Below are positions 4,605-53,304 of a stretch of DNA of 64,000 bases, piece by piece; the first letter of the stretch is position 1; each line of letters starts with the position of its first letter. Origin of the DNA: Lentzea atacamensis (GTDB lineage Bacteria > Actinomycetota > Actinomycetes > Mycobacteriales > Pseudonocardiaceae); NCBI RefSeq assembly GCF_003269295.1, contig NZ_QLTT01000010.1, forward strand, positions 57,958 through 121,957, written 5' to 3'. The notes beneath the pieces were generated by a model. It was not told the origin of the DNA. It saw only the letters and a list, made by a program, of their open reading frames with translations, and did no database searches. Position numbers and translations under genes: made by a program.

Positions 4605-5391
4605 CGGCGAGAGAAGCCAGTAGCCGCAACGCTTCCTCCGACGGGCTACCAGGCGCGGCCACGTAGGTCACCAACGCCTGCCCCGCGTCCGAGGTCAGCG
4701 TCTCCACGGCCAGTTCGAGCGGCCCCAGCTGCGGGTGGTTCATGCGCTTGAACATGGGCTCTCGCGCGCGCACCGGATGCTCCGCCCACAGCGCGCGGAA
4801 CAACGGCGACGCCTCGGACATCTCCTCGACCAGCGCCAGCAGCGCCGGGTCGTCCGGGTGGATGCCGTAGTCCGCCCGCAGGTAGCCGACGTTCTCACGC
4901 GCGCAGTCCGTCCAGCCGGGGTAGAGCTCCCGCGCGGCCGGGTCGGTGAACATGTACCGCACCATGTTCGGCTGCTCGCGGAAGTCCGTCACGAGCGCCG
5001 CGGCCAGCGGGTTCCAGGCGAGCACGTCGAGCCGCCGCCCGAGGACCATCGCGGGCACGCCCTGCAGCGCGTCGAGCAACCACCGCAACGCCGGCCGCAC
5101 CTCCTCCGACGGCGCCTCCACCCGAGCGGGCCGCGCCAGCCGGTAAAGATGCGCGCGCTCAGCGCTGTCCAGCCCGAGCGCCTGGGCCAGCGCGTCCAGG
5201 ATCGAGTCGGACGCGTTGGACGCGCGTCCCTGCTCCATGCGCGTGTAGTAGTCGACGCTGATCCCGGCCAGCTGCGCCAGCTCCTCACGCCGCAGGCCCG
5301 GCACCCGCCTCCGCGAAGCCCGCTCGGGCGGGTCCAGCGCCGCACGACGAGCCCGCAGGAACTCCCCCAACTCGCTCACGGCTCCCATCAT
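4597..5391 (-). CDS. XRE-family regulator with MmyB-like ligand-binding domain
   Basis: This 264-residue protein has an N-terminal helix-turn-helix ([12 protein letters not shown]... [18 protein letters not shown], residues 8-70) and a C-terminal MmyB-type domain ([20 protein letters not shown], then [19 protein letters not shown]), thought to bind a fatty-acid-like ligand. Such regulators usually control an adjacent dehydrogenase gene. The ATG at 5391 overlaps the TGA of the upstream SDR gene (ATGA), so the two are translationally coupled. Its 3' end overlaps that of the convergent RNase H gene by 8 bp. A dyad at 6128-6148 upstream of the SDR gene is a candidate binding site. Confidence 0.88.
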
Positions 5392-48778: not shown

Positions 48779-51610
48779 GTGTCCCGCCTCTCCCGCCTTC
48801 GCGGCAGGTGGACGATCCCCGCATTGATCGTGGTCCTCGCCCTCGTCGCAGGCGGCGTGTACTTCACTCGATCCGGGGACGACCCCGTGGCCGTTCCCTA
48901 CAAAGAAGCGAACATCGACGCACCTGAGAGCCCTGACAGCACTCAGACGGTGACGATCGAGACGCGTCTTTACCTCCCCCAGCAGACACCCGCGCCCGCG
49001 ATCATGCTCGCGCACGGTTTCGGCGGCAGCCTCCGCAGCGTGCACACCCAGGCCGAGGAGTTCGCTCGCCGCGGCTTCGTGGTCCTGACGTGGTCCGCTC
49101 GCGGTTTCGGCCGCAGCACCGGCCAGATCGCGCTCAACTCGCTCGACCGCGAGGTCCGCGACGCCCAGAAGCTCCTCGACTTCCTCGGCACCCGTGACGA
49201 GGTGCAGAAGGACACCGGCGGCGACCCGCGCGTCGGCGTGACGGGCGCGTCGTACGGCGGCGCTCTCTCGTTGCTGCTCGCAGGTGTCGACAAGCGCGTC
49301 GACACGCTCGTCCCCGTCATCACCTACAACGACCTCGCCCAGGCGCTGCTGCCGAACTCCTCTTCGGCGACGCAGCGTCCGGACGTCACCCCTGCCGCCA
49401 CCGCGTTCGGCGAGGACGGCGTCTTCAAGCGCTCGTGGGCGGGCATCTTCTTCTCGGCGGGCATGACGTCGATCGACCTCTCGTCGCCCACCGGCGAGGC
49501 GCCCGAAATGGGCCAGACGGAGTCGAACCAGCCCGCCACGCAGCAACAGCCGGGCGGGAACTCGGGTGCCGCCGGTCAGCCGCCGACGCCTTCACTGGGC
49601 GCGTGCGGGCGCTTCACCCCCGAGGTGTGCGCCGCGTACACGGAGGTCGCCACGACGGGCCGCGCCTCGCAGCAGACCCTGGAGCTGCTGCGCAGGTCGT
49701 CCCCGGTCGCCGTGACCGACCAGATCAAGCAGCCGGCGATGCTGGTGCAGGGCGAGCAGGACACCCTGTTCGGCCTCGACCAGTCCGACGCGACCGCGCG
49801 TCAGATCACCGCGGCCGGCGGCAAGGTGAAGATGGTCTGGTACGCGGGCGGCCACGACGGCGGCAACCCCGGCACCGCACTGCGCGGCGAGATCGCCGAC
49901 TGGATGGCGTTCCACCTGCAGGGCAAGGGAACCGATCCCGGCACGGGCTTCGAGTACACGGTGCAGGGCGCGTTCCGCTCGTCGGGCACGCCGTCGCTGC
50001 GCACCGTCGTCGCACCCTCCTACCCCGGTCTCTCCGGCGCCGCCACCGAGCGCCGCACGGTGAAGCTGAGCGGGCGGGAGCAGGTCGCGGTGAACCCGGC
50101 GGGCGGCAACCCGGCGGCGATCAGCAACCTGCCCGGCCTCGGTTCCGCTCTGGCGCGCTCGTCGTCGATCTCCTCGCGGTTGTCGATCGACCTGCCCGGC
50201 CAGGCCGCGGTGTTCACGTCGGACGCGCTGGACTCGCAGCTGCTGCTGACCGGTTCGTCGACGGTCCGTCTGCGCGTCGCGCGCGGCGACCAGTCGTCCG
50301 GCGAAGCGATCCTGTTCGCGAAGCTCTACGACGTGTCGGGCGACGGAACTCGGGTCCTGCCCGGCTCCGCTGTCGCGCCGTTCCGCGTGGCGCTGCCTCC
50401 GGACGGTTCCGCCGCCGAGGTGACCGTGACGCTGCCGCCGGCCGTGCGTCCCGTCGAGAGTGAGCACAAGCTCGCGCTGGTCGTCTCGACGACGGACCAG
50501 GCGTTCGCGAACGCCGAGCAGCCGGCCGCGTACCGGATCTCGCTGGCGTCCGACGAGCTCTCGGTGCCCGTCGTGCCCGGCCGCAACGTGACGACGGGCT
50601 TCCCGACGAGTGCCCTGTGGGGCATCTTGATCACGCTGCTGGTGCTCATCGGCGCCGGTGTCATCGCGATGTTCCGTCGCCGCCTGGCCCACGACTCCGA
50701 TCCTTCGCTGTCCGACGTGCCGCTGGTGATCTCAAACCTGACGAAGTCCTACCCCGGCGGCCTGACCGCGGTGAAGGATCTGTCGTTCCGCGTGGAGCAC
50801 GGCCAGGTGCTGGGTCTGCTGGGTCCCAACGGCGCCGGCAAGACCACGACCCTGCGGATGGTGATGGGCCTGATCCACCCGTCCGAGGGCAACATCCGGG
50901 TCTTCGGCCACAAGGTGACGCCGGGCGCGCCCGTGCTGTCGCGCATCGGTTCCTTCGTCGAGGGTTCCGGCTTCCTGCCGCACCTGTCCGGCGCGGCAAA
51001 CCTGCGCCTGTACTGGGCGGCGACGGGCAGGCCGCTGGAAGAGGCGCACATCGAGGAGGCGCTGGAGATCGCCGGCCTCGGCGACGCCGTGCACCGCCGC
51101 GTGCGCACGTACAGCCAGGGGATGCGCCAGCGGCTCGCGATCGCCCAGGCGATGCTCGGTCTCCCGGACCTGCTGATCCTGGACGAACCGACCAACGGAC
51201 TCGACCCGCCCCAGATCCACCAGATGCGCGAGGTCCTGCGCCGCTACGCCGCGGCGGGCCGCACGGTGCTGGTGTCGTCGCACCTGCTGGCCGAGGTGGA
51301 GCAGACCTGTTCGCACGTGGTCGTGATGCACAAGGGCCAGCTCGTCGCCGCGGGCGAGGTGGCCGACATCGCGGCGGGAGGCGGCGAGGCGACGTTCCGC
51401 GTCGACTCCCCCTCGAAGGCGGCCGATGTCCTGCGGGGCCTCGAAGGCGTGCACGACGTGCACGAGGACGAGGGTGCCGTGCACGCGTCGATGAACGGCG
51501 TCCCGCGCGCCGCGGCACTGTCTGCTCTCGTGGCAGCCGGTGTGGCCGTGGACCAGGCGGGTCCGCGGCGAAGGCTGGAAGACGCGTTCTTGGAGCTGGT
51601 CGGTGAATGA
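48779..51610 (+). CDS. Alpha/beta hydrolase (S15/CocE-like) fused to ABC transporter ATPase
   Basis: This 943-residue protein has a signal-anchor helix (12-29), an X-Pro peptidase/CocE-type hydrolase (60-400; S158 in GASYGG, QGEQDTLFGLD, YAGGHDGG), a jelly-roll part (405-605), a second helix (TSALWGILITLLVLIGAGVIAMF, about 617-640) and an ABC ATPase (650-943; GPNGAGKTT, YSQGMRQR, LLILDEPTNG). The topology puts the hydrolase outside and the ATPase inside. With the downstream permease it should form one export complex whose role is unknown. Confidence 0.87.
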   Translation: MSRLSRLRGRWTIPALIVVLALVAGGVYFTRSGDDPVAVPYKEANIDAPESPDSTQTVTIETRLYLPQQTPAPAIMLAHGFGGSLRSVHTQAEEFARRGFVVLTWSARGFGRSTGQIALNSLDREVRDAQKLLDFLGTRDEVQKDTGGDPRVGVTGASYGGALSLLLAGVDKRVDTLVPVITYNDLAQALLPNSSSATQRPDVTPAATAFGEDGVFKRSWAGIFFSAGMTSIDLSSPTGEAPEMGQTESNQPATQQQPGGNSGAAGQPPTPSLGACGRFTPEVCAAYTEVATTGRASQQTLELLRRSSPVAVTDQIKQPAMLVQGEQDTLFGLDQSDATARQITAAGGKVKMVWYAGGHDGGNPGTALRGEIADWMAFHLQGKGTDPGTGFEYTVQGAFRSSGTPSLRTVVAPSYPGLSGAATERRTVKLSGREQVAVNPAGGNPAAISNLPGLGSALARSSSISSRLSIDLPGQAAVFTSDALDSQLLLTGSSTVRLRVARGDQSSGEAILFAKLYDVSGDGTRVLPGSAVAPFRVALPPDGSAAEVTVTLPPAVRPVESEHKLALVVSTTDQAFANAEQPAAYRISLASDELSVPVVPGRNVTTGFPTSALWGILITLLVLIGAGVIAMFRRRLAHDSDPSLSDVPLVISNLTKSYPGGLTAVKDLSFRVEHGQVLGLLGPNGAGKTTTLRMVMGLIHPSEGNIRVFGHKVTPGAPVLSRIGSFVEGSGFLPHLSGAANLRLYWAATGRPLEEAHIEEALEIAGLGDAVHRRVRTYSQGMRQRLAIAQAMLGLPDLLILDEPTNGLDPPQIHQMREVLRRYAAAGRTVLVSSHLLAEVEQTCSHVVVMHKGQLVAAGEVADIAAGGGEATFRVDSPSKAADVLRGLEGVHDVHEDEGAVHASMNGVPRAAALSALVAAGVAVDQAGPRRRLEDAFLELVGE

Positions 51611-51740
51611 CTTCCTGATGGCAGCGGCGTCCGCCACGGCGGGCGCCCCGAACCCCGGCGCGCTCGAGGTGCTGGCGGAGGCCGGCCTCGACGTGGCCGG
51701 CGAGGTGGCGGAAACGCACGACGAGGAGGGCACCGAATGA
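51603..51740 (+). CDS. 45-residue coupled ORF
   Basis: GTG 51603 overlaps the stop of the fusion gene and the TGA at 51738-51740 overlaps the ATG of the next ORF. The peptide NDFLMAAASATAGAPNPGAL ... EVAETHDEEGTE is acidic and unlike known families. Unbroken start-stop overlaps argue that it is translated. Confidence 0.5.
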   Translation: MNDFLMAAASATAGAPNPGALEVLAEAGLDVAGEVAETHDEEGTE

Positions 51741-51964
51741 ACGCCGCGCAAGCTCCCGCAGGCGTCCCCTCCCCGAATGCGCACACGCCGCCCACCGGGC
51801 AAGGGGGACCCCTGATTCCATTCTCCCAGCCGGCACCGACAGTTCCGGGCCGGGCGCGTCGCGAACGGACCGTTCACAACAGCGGTTCGCGCACGGCCGA
51901 ATCCATCCTCACCGCGAACCCGAACCGCACGAAGGCGCCAGCCCGGCAGGAGTTGGACCGGTGA
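51737..51964 (+). CDS. 75-residue Pro-rich coupled ORF
   Basis: ATG 51737 overlaps the previous stop (ATGA) and its own stop overlaps the permease start (GTGA). The product is Pro/Ala/Arg-rich and hydrophilic (HTPPTGQGGPLIPF, RARRERTVHNSG). No function can be given; it may mainly relay ribosomes to the permease gene. Confidence 0.45.
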   Translation: MNAAQAPAGVPSPNAHTPPTGQGGPLIPFSQPAPTVPGRARRERTVHNSGSRTAESILTANPNRTKAPARQELDR

Positions 51965-52887
51965 ACGAACACGACGTCCACACCGACCCCGGCGCGATCA
52001 CCGAGCTGACCGACGCGGCCGCCAACCAGCACACCGAGGTGGCACCGGACGGTTCCTCGAAGGGCTACAGGGCGCGCAGAACGCTCCGCATCCGGGTGGA
52101 GCTGCAACGGCAGATCCGCCGCCGCAGGACCCAGCTCGTGCTGGGCTTCCTGGTGCTGCTGCCGTTCATCCTCGCGCTGAGCTTCGAAATCGGTCAGTCC
52201 GACCCGAACCGCCGCTCCGGCGGCTTCGTGGACCTCGCGACGGCCAGCGGCATCAACTTCGTGGTGCTCACGCTGTTCGTGAGCGGCAGCTTCCTGCTGC
52301 CGATGATCGTGGCGCTGTTCTTCGGCGACACGATCGCGTCCGAGGCCTCCTGGTCGAGCCTCAAGTACCTGCTGGCGGCGCCGATCCCCCGGCACCGCCT
52401 GCTCCGGCAGAAGGCGATCAGCAGCGGCATCCTCAGCTTCTTCGCGCTGGCACTCCTACCGGCGGTCGCCCTCGCCGTGGGCGTCGTCTGGTACGGCGCG
52501 GGCGAGGTCGTGAGCCCGACCGGCGAGGCGGCACCGTTCGCCGACGGCGTCCTCGGTGTCGCCCTCGCCGTCTGCTACATCGCGATCAACCTGTTCTGGG
52601 TAGCCGGACTGGCGCTGTTCCTGTCCGTGTCCACCGACGCGCCGCTCGGTGCGGTCGGCGGCACGGTGCTCGTGTCGATCCTGTCGCAGATCCTCGACCA
52701 GATCGAACCGCTCGGGGACCTGCGCAACTACCTGCCGACGCACTACGCGATGTCGTGGGCCGACCTGCTCTCGACCGATGTGGACTGGTCGGAGATGACG
52801 CGCGGGACGTTCTCGGCGCTCGTCTACGGCGGCATCTTCACGCTGCTCGCGGCGCGCCGGTTCAAGACCAAGGACATCACGAGCTAG
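51961..52887 (+). CDS. ABC transporter permease (ABC-2 type)
   Basis: This 308-residue protein has a hydrophilic N-terminus with a basic juxtamembrane stretch (RVELQRQIRRRRTQLVLGFL) and six transmembrane helices typical of ABC-2 permeases, with SLKYLLAAPIPRHRLLRQKAIS between the second and third. It pairs with the ATPase domain of the upstream fusion protein. GTG 51961 overlaps the previous stop. Substrate is unknown. Confidence 0.85.
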   Translation: MNEHDVHTDPGAITELTDAAANQHTEVAPDGSSKGYRARRTLRIRVELQRQIRRRRTQLVLGFLVLLPFILALSFEIGQSDPNRRSGGFVDLATASGINFVVLTLFVSGSFLLPMIVALFFGDTIASEASWSSLKYLLAAPIPRHRLLRQKAISSGILSFFALALLPAVALAVGVVWYGAGEVVSPTGEAAPFADGVLGVALAVCYIAINLFWVAGLALFLSVSTDAPLGAVGGTVLVSILSQILDQIEPLGDLRNYLPTHYAMSWADLLSTDVDWSEMTRGTFSALVYGGIFTLLAARRFKTKDITS

Positions 52888-52888
52888 C

Positions 52889-53281
52889 TCACTGCACGCA
52901 GAACTCGTTGCCCTCGGGGTCGAGCATGGTCACCCAGTGGCCCTTGCCGTCCTTGAACTCCTGGACCTTCGTCGCGCCGAGGGCAACGAGACGATCAACA
53001 GCGTCGAGACCCGCGTTCACATCGAGGTGGACGCGGTTCTTGGCCGTCTTGCCCTCCGGCACCCGCTGGAAGAAGAACCGCGGCCCCTCGCCCTCCGGGT
53101 CGATGATCGCCGAGTAGTCGTTCAGCGACTCGTAGGGGATGTTGTTCTTGACGGCGAAGTCCTCCCACGACTCGAAGCCGGGCGGTGGCGGCTGCACCAC
53201 GTAACCGAGTGCCTCCGCCCAGAACTCAGCCAGCTTCCCGGGGTCCGCCGCGTCCATCGTCACCTGGATTCCGATTGCCAT
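52889..53281 (-). CDS. VOC-family (glyoxalase/bleomycin-resistance fold) protein
   Basis: This 130-residue protein has two VOC beta-alpha-beta modules: IQVTMDAADPGKLAEFWAEALGY and RVHLDVNAGLDAVDRLVALGATKV ... HWVTMLDPEGNEFCV. Metal ligands would be the histidine of HLDV and the C-terminal glutamate. Substrate is unknown. TACGGT (53293-53288) lies 6 nt before ATG 53281 and the GGACA-N5-TGTCC motif lies further upstream, as in the DinB-like gene. Confidence 0.86.
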   Translation of the reverse strand: MAIGIQVTMDAADPGKLAEFWAEALGYVVQPPPPGFESWEDFAVKNNIPYESLNDYSAIIDPEGEGPRFFFQRVPEGKTAKNRVHLDVNAGLDAVDRLVALGATKVQEFKDGKGHWVTMLDPEGNEFCVQ

Positions 53282-53304
53282 GAAGCAACCGTAGGACCCA
53301 ATGC

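Follow-up and report, generated by a model that had tools for sequence, protein, structure and literature searches.

What are two very small reading frames doing between the genes of a bacterial transporter, and how did they come to be there? We analysed a 64,000-nucleotide stretch of Lentzea atacamensis DNA (the window), in which the ORF calls give a gene for a hydrolase-ATPase fusion, two micro-ORFs and a gene for an ABC-2 permease, chained by three start-stop overlaps. An earlier note on this DNA had proposed that the micro-ORFs link the fusion to its permease in this way. Our analysis confirms it: the overlaps are GTGAATGA between the fusion and micro-ORF 1 (8 nt, 51603-51610), ATGA between the two micro-ORFs (51737-51740) and GTGA between micro-ORF 2 and the permease (51961-51964). 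The permease matches ABC2_membrane_2 of Pfam with 44.2 bits (cut-off 27.2), and neither micro-ORF has any match to Pfam or NCBIfam families. The features of the locus are listed in Table 1.

Table 1. Features of the fusion-permease operon, in window coordinates.
Feature	Position	Strand	Details
Hydrolase - TM - ABC ATPase fusion	48779..51610	+	943 aa, GTG start; ORF calls, Pfam, fold
N-terminal hydrophobic segment, likely TM1 or signal anchor	48812..48868	+	residues 12-30; hydropathy
Peptidase_S15 (CocE) domain	48950..49819	+	residues 58-347; Pfam; S158, D328
PepX_C domain	50105..50518	+	residues 443-580; Pfam
Second hydrophobic segment, then RRR	50615..50671	+	residues 613-631; hydropathy
ABC_tran domain	50771..51196	+	residues 665-806; Pfam
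Micro-ORF 1	51603..51740	+	45 aa, GTG start; 8-nt overlap with fusion stop
Micro-ORF 2	51737..51964	+	75 aa, ATG start; overlaps both neighbours (micro-ORF 1, permease)
Element copy within micro-ORF 2	51752..51848	+	core 51820-51841; outer limits by eye
Permease Shine-Dalgarno region	51941..51960	+	CAGGAGTTGG; duplex -8.6 kcal/mol, weaker than in congeners
ABC-2 type permease	51961..52887	+	308 aa, GTG start; ORF calls, Pfam

The hydrolase-ATPase fusion

The fusion itself was considered as the new thing at this locus and rejected, because its hydrolase part is widespread in the family and the class. We found this part at E <= 1.2e-60 in 146 of the 150 family genomes, with weak matches alone in the other four, and at E <= 1e-40 in 48 of the 197 class genomes; among the matches listed, most hydrolase rows sit in open frames as long as the fusion. 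All 80 named relatives have the fusion in front of the permease. It is an ordinary protein, widespread in actinomycetes, and not a novel one. No paper on a hydrolase-ABC fusion was recognised in our literature search.

In Pfam the fusion scores 67.2 bits for Peptidase_S15 (PF02129, cut-off 23), 27.9 bits for PepX_C (cut-off 22.5) and 106.3 bits for ABC_tran, with the Walker A, signature and Walker B motifs all there. We aligned 80 fusion rows, i.e. 79 of the 80 named loci, one truncated locus being omitted, and the window. K688, S779 and E803 of the ATPase are kept in all 80 rows, as are D328 and H359 of the hydrolase, and S158 is kept in 79. S158, D328 and H359, the last just past the end of the Pfam Peptidase_S15 stretch, we take to be the catalytic Ser-Asp-His triad, an assignment made by motif. 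Residues 34-612 were modelled in a CocE-type fold (pLDDT 85.7), and the model matches 8yzn with Z 31.1 and cocaine esterase 1ju3 over its whole length with Z 26.7 and rmsd 3.2 (461 aligned). The earlier note had placed a CocE-like hydrolase outside the membrane and the ATPase inside; the predicted fold, the conserved Ser, Asp and His and the two hydrophobic segments flanking the hydrolase favour such an arrangement, in which the topology is a prediction. The hydrolase might then process an exported molecule, as that note suggested. The fusion shares with the CocE/NonD (S15) hydrolases the order of S15 and PepX_C, the catalytic residues and the whole-length match of the predicted fold, but differs in its two flanking hydrophobic segments and its junction to an ABC ATPase. 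The best NCBIfam match of this ATPase is drrA, at 178.9 bits and under the cut-off of 312.45. The system thus resembles the DrrA-type ABC-2 exporters in its ATPase affinity and its ABC-2 permease partner, and differs from them in the hydrolase joined to its ATPase.

Single origin of the insertion in the Lentzea lineage

The micro-ORFs lie in an insertion restricted to the Lentzea clade, in 19 of its 20 named loci and in the window; the remaining locus, of Lentzea sp. NBRC 105346 (L160), has no insertion and a bare GTGAATGA overlap between fusion and permease. The insertion at this overlap had a single origin in the Lentzea lineage, and the presence of micro-ORFs is one change on the tree. Near-copies of the 10-bp overlap (CGGTGAAYGA) flank it, with at most one mismatch in 14 of the 20 loci and two to three in the other six. 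Elsewhere in the 2.49 Mb of searched loci the insertion ends have weak matches at most and no repeat copy.

In other genera, the permease could start between -8 and +30 nt from the fusion stop in 57 of the 60 loci. Each of the remaining three (L198, L199 and L205) has an ORF of 22-26 aa, unrelated to the Lentzea micro-ORFs, with a 4-nt overlap at both ends; an alternative permease start is possible in L198 (-14 nt) and L199 (+40 nt). The first 11 residues of the small ORF are common to L199 and L205, and among 392 loci this ORF occurs only in those of this operon (L033, L036, L199 and L205), with none found in plasmids (E <= 0.01) or, by exact pattern, in viral contigs. In L229 a similar but shorter stretch is the beginning of a different gene.

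Number, length and peptide of the micro-ORFs differ among the Lentzea-clade loci. There is one micro-ORF in 12 of the 20 and two in the other eight (the window and seven more); this state has changed at least three times on the tree, and the deepest micro-ORF-bearing branches have two. The overlaps, whose conservation the earlier note had named as a test of its idea, are maintained in all 20 micro-ORF loci, an outcome that favours the note, and the start-stop chain is intact across 14 linker lengths. Every one-ORF linker is a multiple of 3, and every two-ORF linker is in the register needed by a 4-nt overlap. Since the chain is intact in all of these loci while the peptides vary, continuity of translation, not the peptide, seems to be the thing maintained.

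A chain can also arise by chance. For the linker of the window it does so in 0.28 of random linkers with fixed ends and about its composition and length, and in 0.24 of exact-length shuffles; across the loci the corresponding ranges are 0.15-0.50, about 0.3 per linker, and 0.14-0.62. The chain of the window alone is hence not improbable, one chain being cheap in GC-rich DNA. Its retention over 14 linker lengths in 20 loci exceeds chance, though the loci share ancestry and the lengths are not independent.

The permease Shine-Dalgarno averages -15.0 kcal/mol in the 20 micro-ORF loci versus -8.6 kcal/mol in 14 direct-overlap relatives. It is very strong, near-perfect, in 18 of the 20, and that of the window is weak. 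The idea of the earlier note that the micro-ORFs set the subunit ratio is plausible because of these 18 loci, though not from the window's own site. Attenuation by a hairpin was considered as well and found unsupported, the RNA folding of micro-ORF 2 being unremarkable (z -1.28) and the window having no terminator-like site at the element described below.

These results bear on the possibility that the linker is an untranslated spacer whose chain follows from high GC content, and that the permease is read independently, from a strong Shine-Dalgarno of its own. The frequency of chained random linkers and the 18 near-perfect sites agree with it. The unbroken chain over 14 lengths and the registers of both linker classes do not, and neither do the bridging ORFs of the three other-genus loci. 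In the one-ORF set, moreover, pN/pS is 0.61 in the true frame versus 1.28 and 1.13 in the shifted frames, a preference that is seen in this set only and in an alignment that mixes element-bearing and element-free forms. We consider a mere spacer unlikely.

A dispersed, apparently palindromic element

An element takes up 97 of the 228 bp of micro-ORF 2. Its core is in the linker of 15 of the 20 micro-ORF loci, five 177-bp linkers being without it, and the element is present in all 24 Lentzea genomes, in 2-32 places each. It also lies in frame inside lipoprotein, carboxylase, synthetase and transporter genes, and its copies have both orientations and fall in several reading frames. Of the carboxylase orthologues 16 of 24 are filled, of the synthetase orthologues 10 of 23, and both genes have empty orthologues as well, the empty synthetase orthologue of G123 being reported with an internal stop. 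All 13 copies in the Germane-domain lipoprotein gene are without an in-frame stop (the name lpqB for this gene was dropped after a family search), and the genome search reported no stop at the transporter locus of G155 (L355), where an extended translation showed one owing to a left anchor that ended early. The majority sequence is open in five of the six frames and folds at -29.8 kcal/mol, with the arms GGGGTCCCC..GGGGACCCC visible, and RNAalifold on the gapped alignment gave no consensus structure. The 102 copies used here are from 95 loci chosen among the pattern matches, not from all matches; grouping by flank similarity gave 42 sites, and the gene context of non-coding sites was taken from a home-made codon score. 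The pattern AAGGGGGWCCCC, with one match in the own genome, was uninformative.

Recombination may be the cause of the patchy insertion in the carboxylase gene. To the left of the site, the closest sequence to the 150 bp is that of the sister in three sister pairs; to the right this holds for G162/G123 alone, and G151 is there nearest to another empty genome, G154. On the carboxylase tree 10 of the 21 forks are weakly supported, the sister pair G162/G123 itself being weak (83/52), and the carboxylase label is as little clustered in most shuffles.

Our literature searches turned up no report of this element. It was rejected as a known RNA, with no Rfam match at gathering scores in nine element loci; as phage or plasmid DNA, with no match at E <= 0.01 and one exact pattern absent from viral contigs; and as a DUF222/13E12-linked repeat, the four DUF222 loci of the own genome being free of the core. 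A sub-threshold Rfam match in the window was taken as chance. One partial 8-mer was seen inside one DUF222 locus.

The element could instead be primarily regulatory. Its core on the other strand resembles a PafBC/RecA-NDp DNA-damage promoter, and transcription from it could therefore run antisense across the fusion gene. At the PafBC spacing given in the accessible part of PMC8151990, TGTCGG-N10-nA-NNN-T occurs in 101 of the 102 copies, an agreement partly built in because the search pattern covered those bases, and the missing T is present in three other-genus matches (L225, L227 and L234). The strict form TGTC[AG]G-N10-TA-NNN-T, however, is found in 0 of the 102 copies, several element sites lie between genes that are apparently convergent by the codon score, and 51300-53300 has no sigma-70-type promoter. 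A mainly regulatory role thus appears quite improbable.

Micro-ORF peptides and a probable translated relay

The dN/dS of the micro-ORFs is 0.94 and 0.96 in the two-ORF species and 0.54 in the one-ORF species, compared with 0.14 for the fusion end and 0.21 for the permease. By these ratios the predicted peptides are weakly constrained or unconstrained. A dN/dS near 1 is equally expected from untranslated DNA.

It is very unlikely, in our judgement, that the micro-ORFs code for small transporter subunits with a function. Codons 1-10 of micro-ORF 1, near-invariant in the 20 loci with most synonymous sites included, and the tail LTANPNRTKAPxRQEVDR, well conserved in most of them, would suit such subunits, but the head is the initiation region and the tail overlies the Shine-Dalgarno. 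The middle sequences and lengths diverge widely, dN/dS is near 1 in the two-ORF species, the one-versus-two state needs its three or more tree changes, and no family matches. L160 does without micro-ORFs, and nearly all the other-genus loci (57/60) have a possible permease start near the fusion stop. That one longer gene was split in two artificially, by a frameshift or in assembly, can practically be dismissed: a single ORF spans the same linker in 12 of the 20 loci, but seven further clade loci have two overlapping ORFs, of different lengths, and so do the deepest micro-ORF-bearing branches.

The comparison of loci makes it probable, we believe, that the insertion was tolerated through a translated relay of micro-ORFs that keeps fusion and permease coupled, the peptides themselves having little or no function. 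The ancestor would have been an ABC-2 transporter of the kind usual in actinomycetes, its ATPase joined to a CocE-type hydrolase outside the membrane and its two genes directly start-stop coupled. In the Lentzea lineage, DNA was inserted at the overlap and is bordered at each end by a near-copy of that overlap; the insertion would have been tolerated since it was translated. Ribosomes finishing the fusion would re-initiate on micro-ORF 1, then on micro-ORF 2 and then on the permease, and therefore no untranslated gap would uncouple the operon or expose it to Rho. According to the accessible part of PMC10666635, coupling needs overlaps, and a spacing of ~20 nt nearly abolishes it. The new 3' end would, in most species, have supplied the near-perfect Shine-Dalgarno, probably raising permease synthesis relative to the fusion. 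The dispersed element may either have brought the insertion in or have entered it later. More tentatively, and with some doubt, we speculate that the element is still being gained and lost and unites two behaviours known separately, MIRU-like in relay ORFs at overlaps and RPE-like in frame in genes in either orientation, and that unrelated relay ORFs have arisen several times in the family at the fusion-permease overlap, which would be a recurrent target.

This one junction offers a natural series: loci without the insertion, with a single relay ORF or with two, and, in other genera, with unrelated relay ORFs. The peptides drift with the start-stop register maintained, so that it can be asked directly why selection favours translational coupling in operons. 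The element is also a case of a repeat within the coding sequences of a high-GC genus, and for two metabolic enzymes the activities of filled and empty orthologues can be compared.

By analogy, the element would work like mycobacterial interspersed repetitive units (MIRUs) and Rickettsia palindromic elements (RPE). The accessible part of PMC12548453 describes MIRU as a short repeat that inserts at the start codon of a gene; its ORF is coupled to that following gene through a 4-nt overlap, and expression therefore suffers little from the insertion. The Lentzea insertion is likened to it by arrangement, not by sequence: it lies at a start-stop overlap, empty in L160, and has overlapping ORFs in 20 loci. 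It differs in its genus, in the tandem ORFs of 8 of the 20 loci, and in having a dispersed inner element between ends for which the 2.49 Mb of searched loci gave no further copy. RPE and intragenic REPs, as the accessible parts of PMC2229807 and PMC3733652 present them, are short palindromic repeats in frame within unrelated genes. The Lentzea element likewise lies in frame within conserved genes that are unrelated to each other and have empty counterparts in relatives, and is unlike them in its high-GC actinomycete hosts, its two orientations and several frames, and the empty congener orthologues for two genes.

Fusion protein and its operon

The micro-ORFs are a relay of the Lentzea clade (the proposed start-stop handover of ribosomes from the fusion gene to the permease gene), and in most species they contain a dispersed, coding-compatible element. 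In the window, taken from a genome of 9.3 Mb, the coordinates confirm the three consecutive start-stop overlaps that the earlier note had described from the fusion through both micro-ORFs to the permease.

Coordinates of the fusion operon in the window and of the small ORFs bridging the same junction in other genera
Feature	Locus	Position
fusion ORF	window	48779-51610
micro-ORF 1	window	51603-51740
micro-ORF 2	window	51737-51964
ABC-2 permease	window	51961-52887
bridging small ORF	L198	4882-4950
bridging small ORF	L199 (Kibdelosporangium)	4924-5004
bridging small ORF	L205 (Amycolatopsis)	4888-4968

Peptidase_S15, PepX_C and ABC_tran (Pfam) all lie on a single chain. The predicted structure of fusion residues 34-612 (mean pLDDT 85.7) resembles CocE-type enzymes along its full length, e.g. 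a lipase (8yzn, Z 31.1) and a cocaine esterase (1ju3, Z 26.7). We aligned 80 rows, i.e. 79 untruncated of the 80 named loci plus the window, and the putative catalytic Ser, Asp and His are retained in 79, 80 and 80 of them, respectively; we infer a hydrolase function for this part. Judging from the sequence, the hydrolase would lie outside the membrane, since two hydrophobic segments (12-30 and 613-631 in the window) bracket it and the ATPase would be cytoplasmic. Two such segments precede the ATPase in 61 of the 80 rows, three or four in 18 and one in 1. The fusion end is found upstream of a permease in all 80 named loci, and a TerC gene is present at 20/20 Lentzea-clade and 56/60 other loci. 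The hydrolase part is matched in 146 of 150 family genomes at E <= 1.2e-60 and in 48 of 197 class genomes at E <= 1e-40. The fusion arrangement is widespread and ordinary, and the novelty does not reside there.

Micro-ORFs at the fusion-permease junction

The Lentzea clade set has 20 named loci, 19 titled Lentzea plus L152, which is titled Nocardia sp. NRRL S-836 and falls within the clade on our tree. Micro-ORFs are present at 19 of them. The remaining locus, L160 of Lentzea sp. NBRC 105346, has no micro-ORFs and carries the bare overlap GTGAATGA, in which the fusion stop coincides with the permease start; it is sister to all other clade members with support 100/100, and one change on the tree explains micro-ORF presence. 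The insertion has a single origin and its empty site is known. A near-copy of the 10-bp overlap flanks it on each side, with at most 1 mismatch in 14/20 and 2-3 mismatches in the remaining six.

All 20 filled loci (the 19 named loci plus the window) have overlaps at each of their junctions. Twelve have one ORF, with linkers of 177-300 bp that are all multiples of 3 in length, and eight have two, with linkers of 350-692 bp; the difference between one and two ORFs requires at least 3 changes on the tree. When linkers similar in composition and length are drawn at random, the chain stays unbroken in 0.15-0.50 of trials (the mean being 0.30), and in exact-length shuffles in 0.14-0.62; therefore a single intact case says little. 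The 14 distinct linker lengths all in register weigh more, though they are not independent.

A tblastn search with both micro-ORF peptides covered the locus of the window plus 40 from other genomes and gave relatives in the six congeners only. Among the 60 named loci of other genera, 57 have a possible permease start -8 to +30 nt from the fusion stop, and each of the remaining three (L198, L199 and L205) has a small ORF of 22-26 aa overlapping both the fusion stop and a permease start by 4 nt; L198 and L199 also allow an alternative permease start. The ORFs of L199 and L205 have MSELASESFNT and its underlying DNA in common and diverge afterwards, and this stretch has the look of a second inserted unit. 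All three ORFs are unrelated to the Lentzea micro-ORFs. The junction seems to have acquired bridging ORFs more than once, and these cases in other genera raise our confidence in the relay somewhat.

The dN/dS of the micro-ORFs is 0.94 and 0.96 in two-ORF species and 0.54 in one-ORF species, where both shifted frames have pN/pS >1; the fusion end and the permease give 0.14 and 0.21 for comparison. The first ten codons are conserved, as are the last residues in most cases, and the permease Shine-Dalgarno sits within this conserved last part. Its mean strength is -15.0 kcal/mol in the 20 filled loci versus -8.6 in 14 direct-overlap relatives, L160 among them (-7.4), the exceptions among filled loci being the window (-8.6) and L146 (intermediate, -11.3 kcal/mol). 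Fusion and permease would be expected to lose their coupling across 177-692 bp of untranslated linker, because a spacing of ~20 nt is reported to abolish coupling almost completely both in E. coli and in an archaeon (PMC10666635); the overlap chain would avoid this. We infer that the micro-ORFs are translated, that their translation serves coupling and that the Shine-Dalgarno has an effect.

A dispersed element inside the linker and inside genes

Of the 228 bp of micro-ORF 2, 97 recur elsewhere in its own genome. The element has GC-rich arms followed by a 22-base core, which occurs at 7 places in this genome (<=3 mismatches) and at 2 to 32 places per genome across 24 genomes of the genus (<=2 mismatches), with 0 matches to the reversed pattern in each. 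G164, the genome of Lentzea sp. NBRC 105346 and the only one in the clade seen without micro-ORFs, has the most (32). In a family sample the core was matched in 34 of 150 genomes, 7 of them from the genus, the others having 1-4 places each; the reversed pattern gave 1 match across the whole sample. A similar GC arm is present in a few of the family genomes outside the genus. Within the linker, the core is found at 15/20 filled loci (double in 4) and is missing from all five 177-bp linkers.

We collected 102 distinct copies from 95 chosen loci, which form 42 sites when grouped by flanks. Downstream of the core, a DnaA-box-like 9-mer (TTRTCCACA or reverse) lies at a distance of 21-24 nt in 9/28 G164 copies (L248-L267 and L135) versus 0/74 other Lentzea copies, the background across these loci being 0.006 per 60 nt.

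In-frame copies with empty orthologues occur at two genes. The acyl-CoA carboxylase (L316-L339) is filled in 16/24 genomes and empty, with a 24-bp site, in 8; every gap is a multiple of 3 and no stop is introduced. The acyl-CoA synthetase (L363-L385) was matched in 23/24 genomes, 10 filled and 13 empty, with the element antisense to the gene. A CitMHS-type transporter was matched in 10/24 genomes, 9 with the core, the tenth not being shown as a clean empty site. All six proteins tested have Pfam domains spanning or flanking the insertion. Stops are found in the used frame of 0/8 carboxylase, 0/8 transporter and 0/5 synthetase copies, and in another same-strand frame of 6/8, 7/8 and 5/5, respectively; the in-frame copies use differing frames and both strands. 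The coding loop around insertions often grows low-complexity repeats, examples being PLAGHTQ for the transporter and both HNTVSR and AGLDV for micro-ORFs (L349, L353, L354, L150 and L152).

A further site is a gene for a Germane-domain lipoprotein (168-268 aa in three tested), preceded by a histidine kinase gene (one tested; best NCBIfam MtrB, below cut-off). In the four loci examined (L123, L274, L284 and L301), the lipoprotein start and the stop of the preceding gene share 4 nt, and the core starts 14 nt downstream, which makes this a second start-stop overlap associated with the element. The lipoprotein frame is stop-free across the element in 13/13 copies and 52/89 other copies have a stop (Fisher p 4e-5, the copies not being independent). 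A lipobox-like CGIRPT comes up in this frame within the stretch covered in 9/13; the other 4 pass through different sequence first, one of them (L123) with the Germane domain downstream.

On the carboxylase gene tree, the carboxylase insertion and the synthetase insertion each require 7 changes; for the carboxylase, well-supported branches force at least 6 of these. In three empty genomes the left flank is closest to that of the filled sister (3/3), and the right flank is so in only 1/3; the patchy presence between close species therefore fits gain, loss and short recombination tracts alike.

A possible regulatory motif, and known systems

On the minus strand of the core, the PafBC motif (PMC8151990) is matched in its strict form in 0/102 copies and in its relaxed form in 101/102. 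In the window, the minus strand of 51820-51841 resembles a PafBC/RecA-NDp-like promoter one base short, pointing antisense into the fusion gene. This likeness may serve as a lead rather than as membership.

In the open-access literature on Lentzea palindromic repeats, actinobacterial in-frame palindromes and intragenic palindromic elements, we recognised no report of the Lentzea element. The Lentzea relay resembles MIRU (PMC12548453), and the Lentzea element resembles RPE in its in-frame insertion (PMC2229807, PMC3733652).
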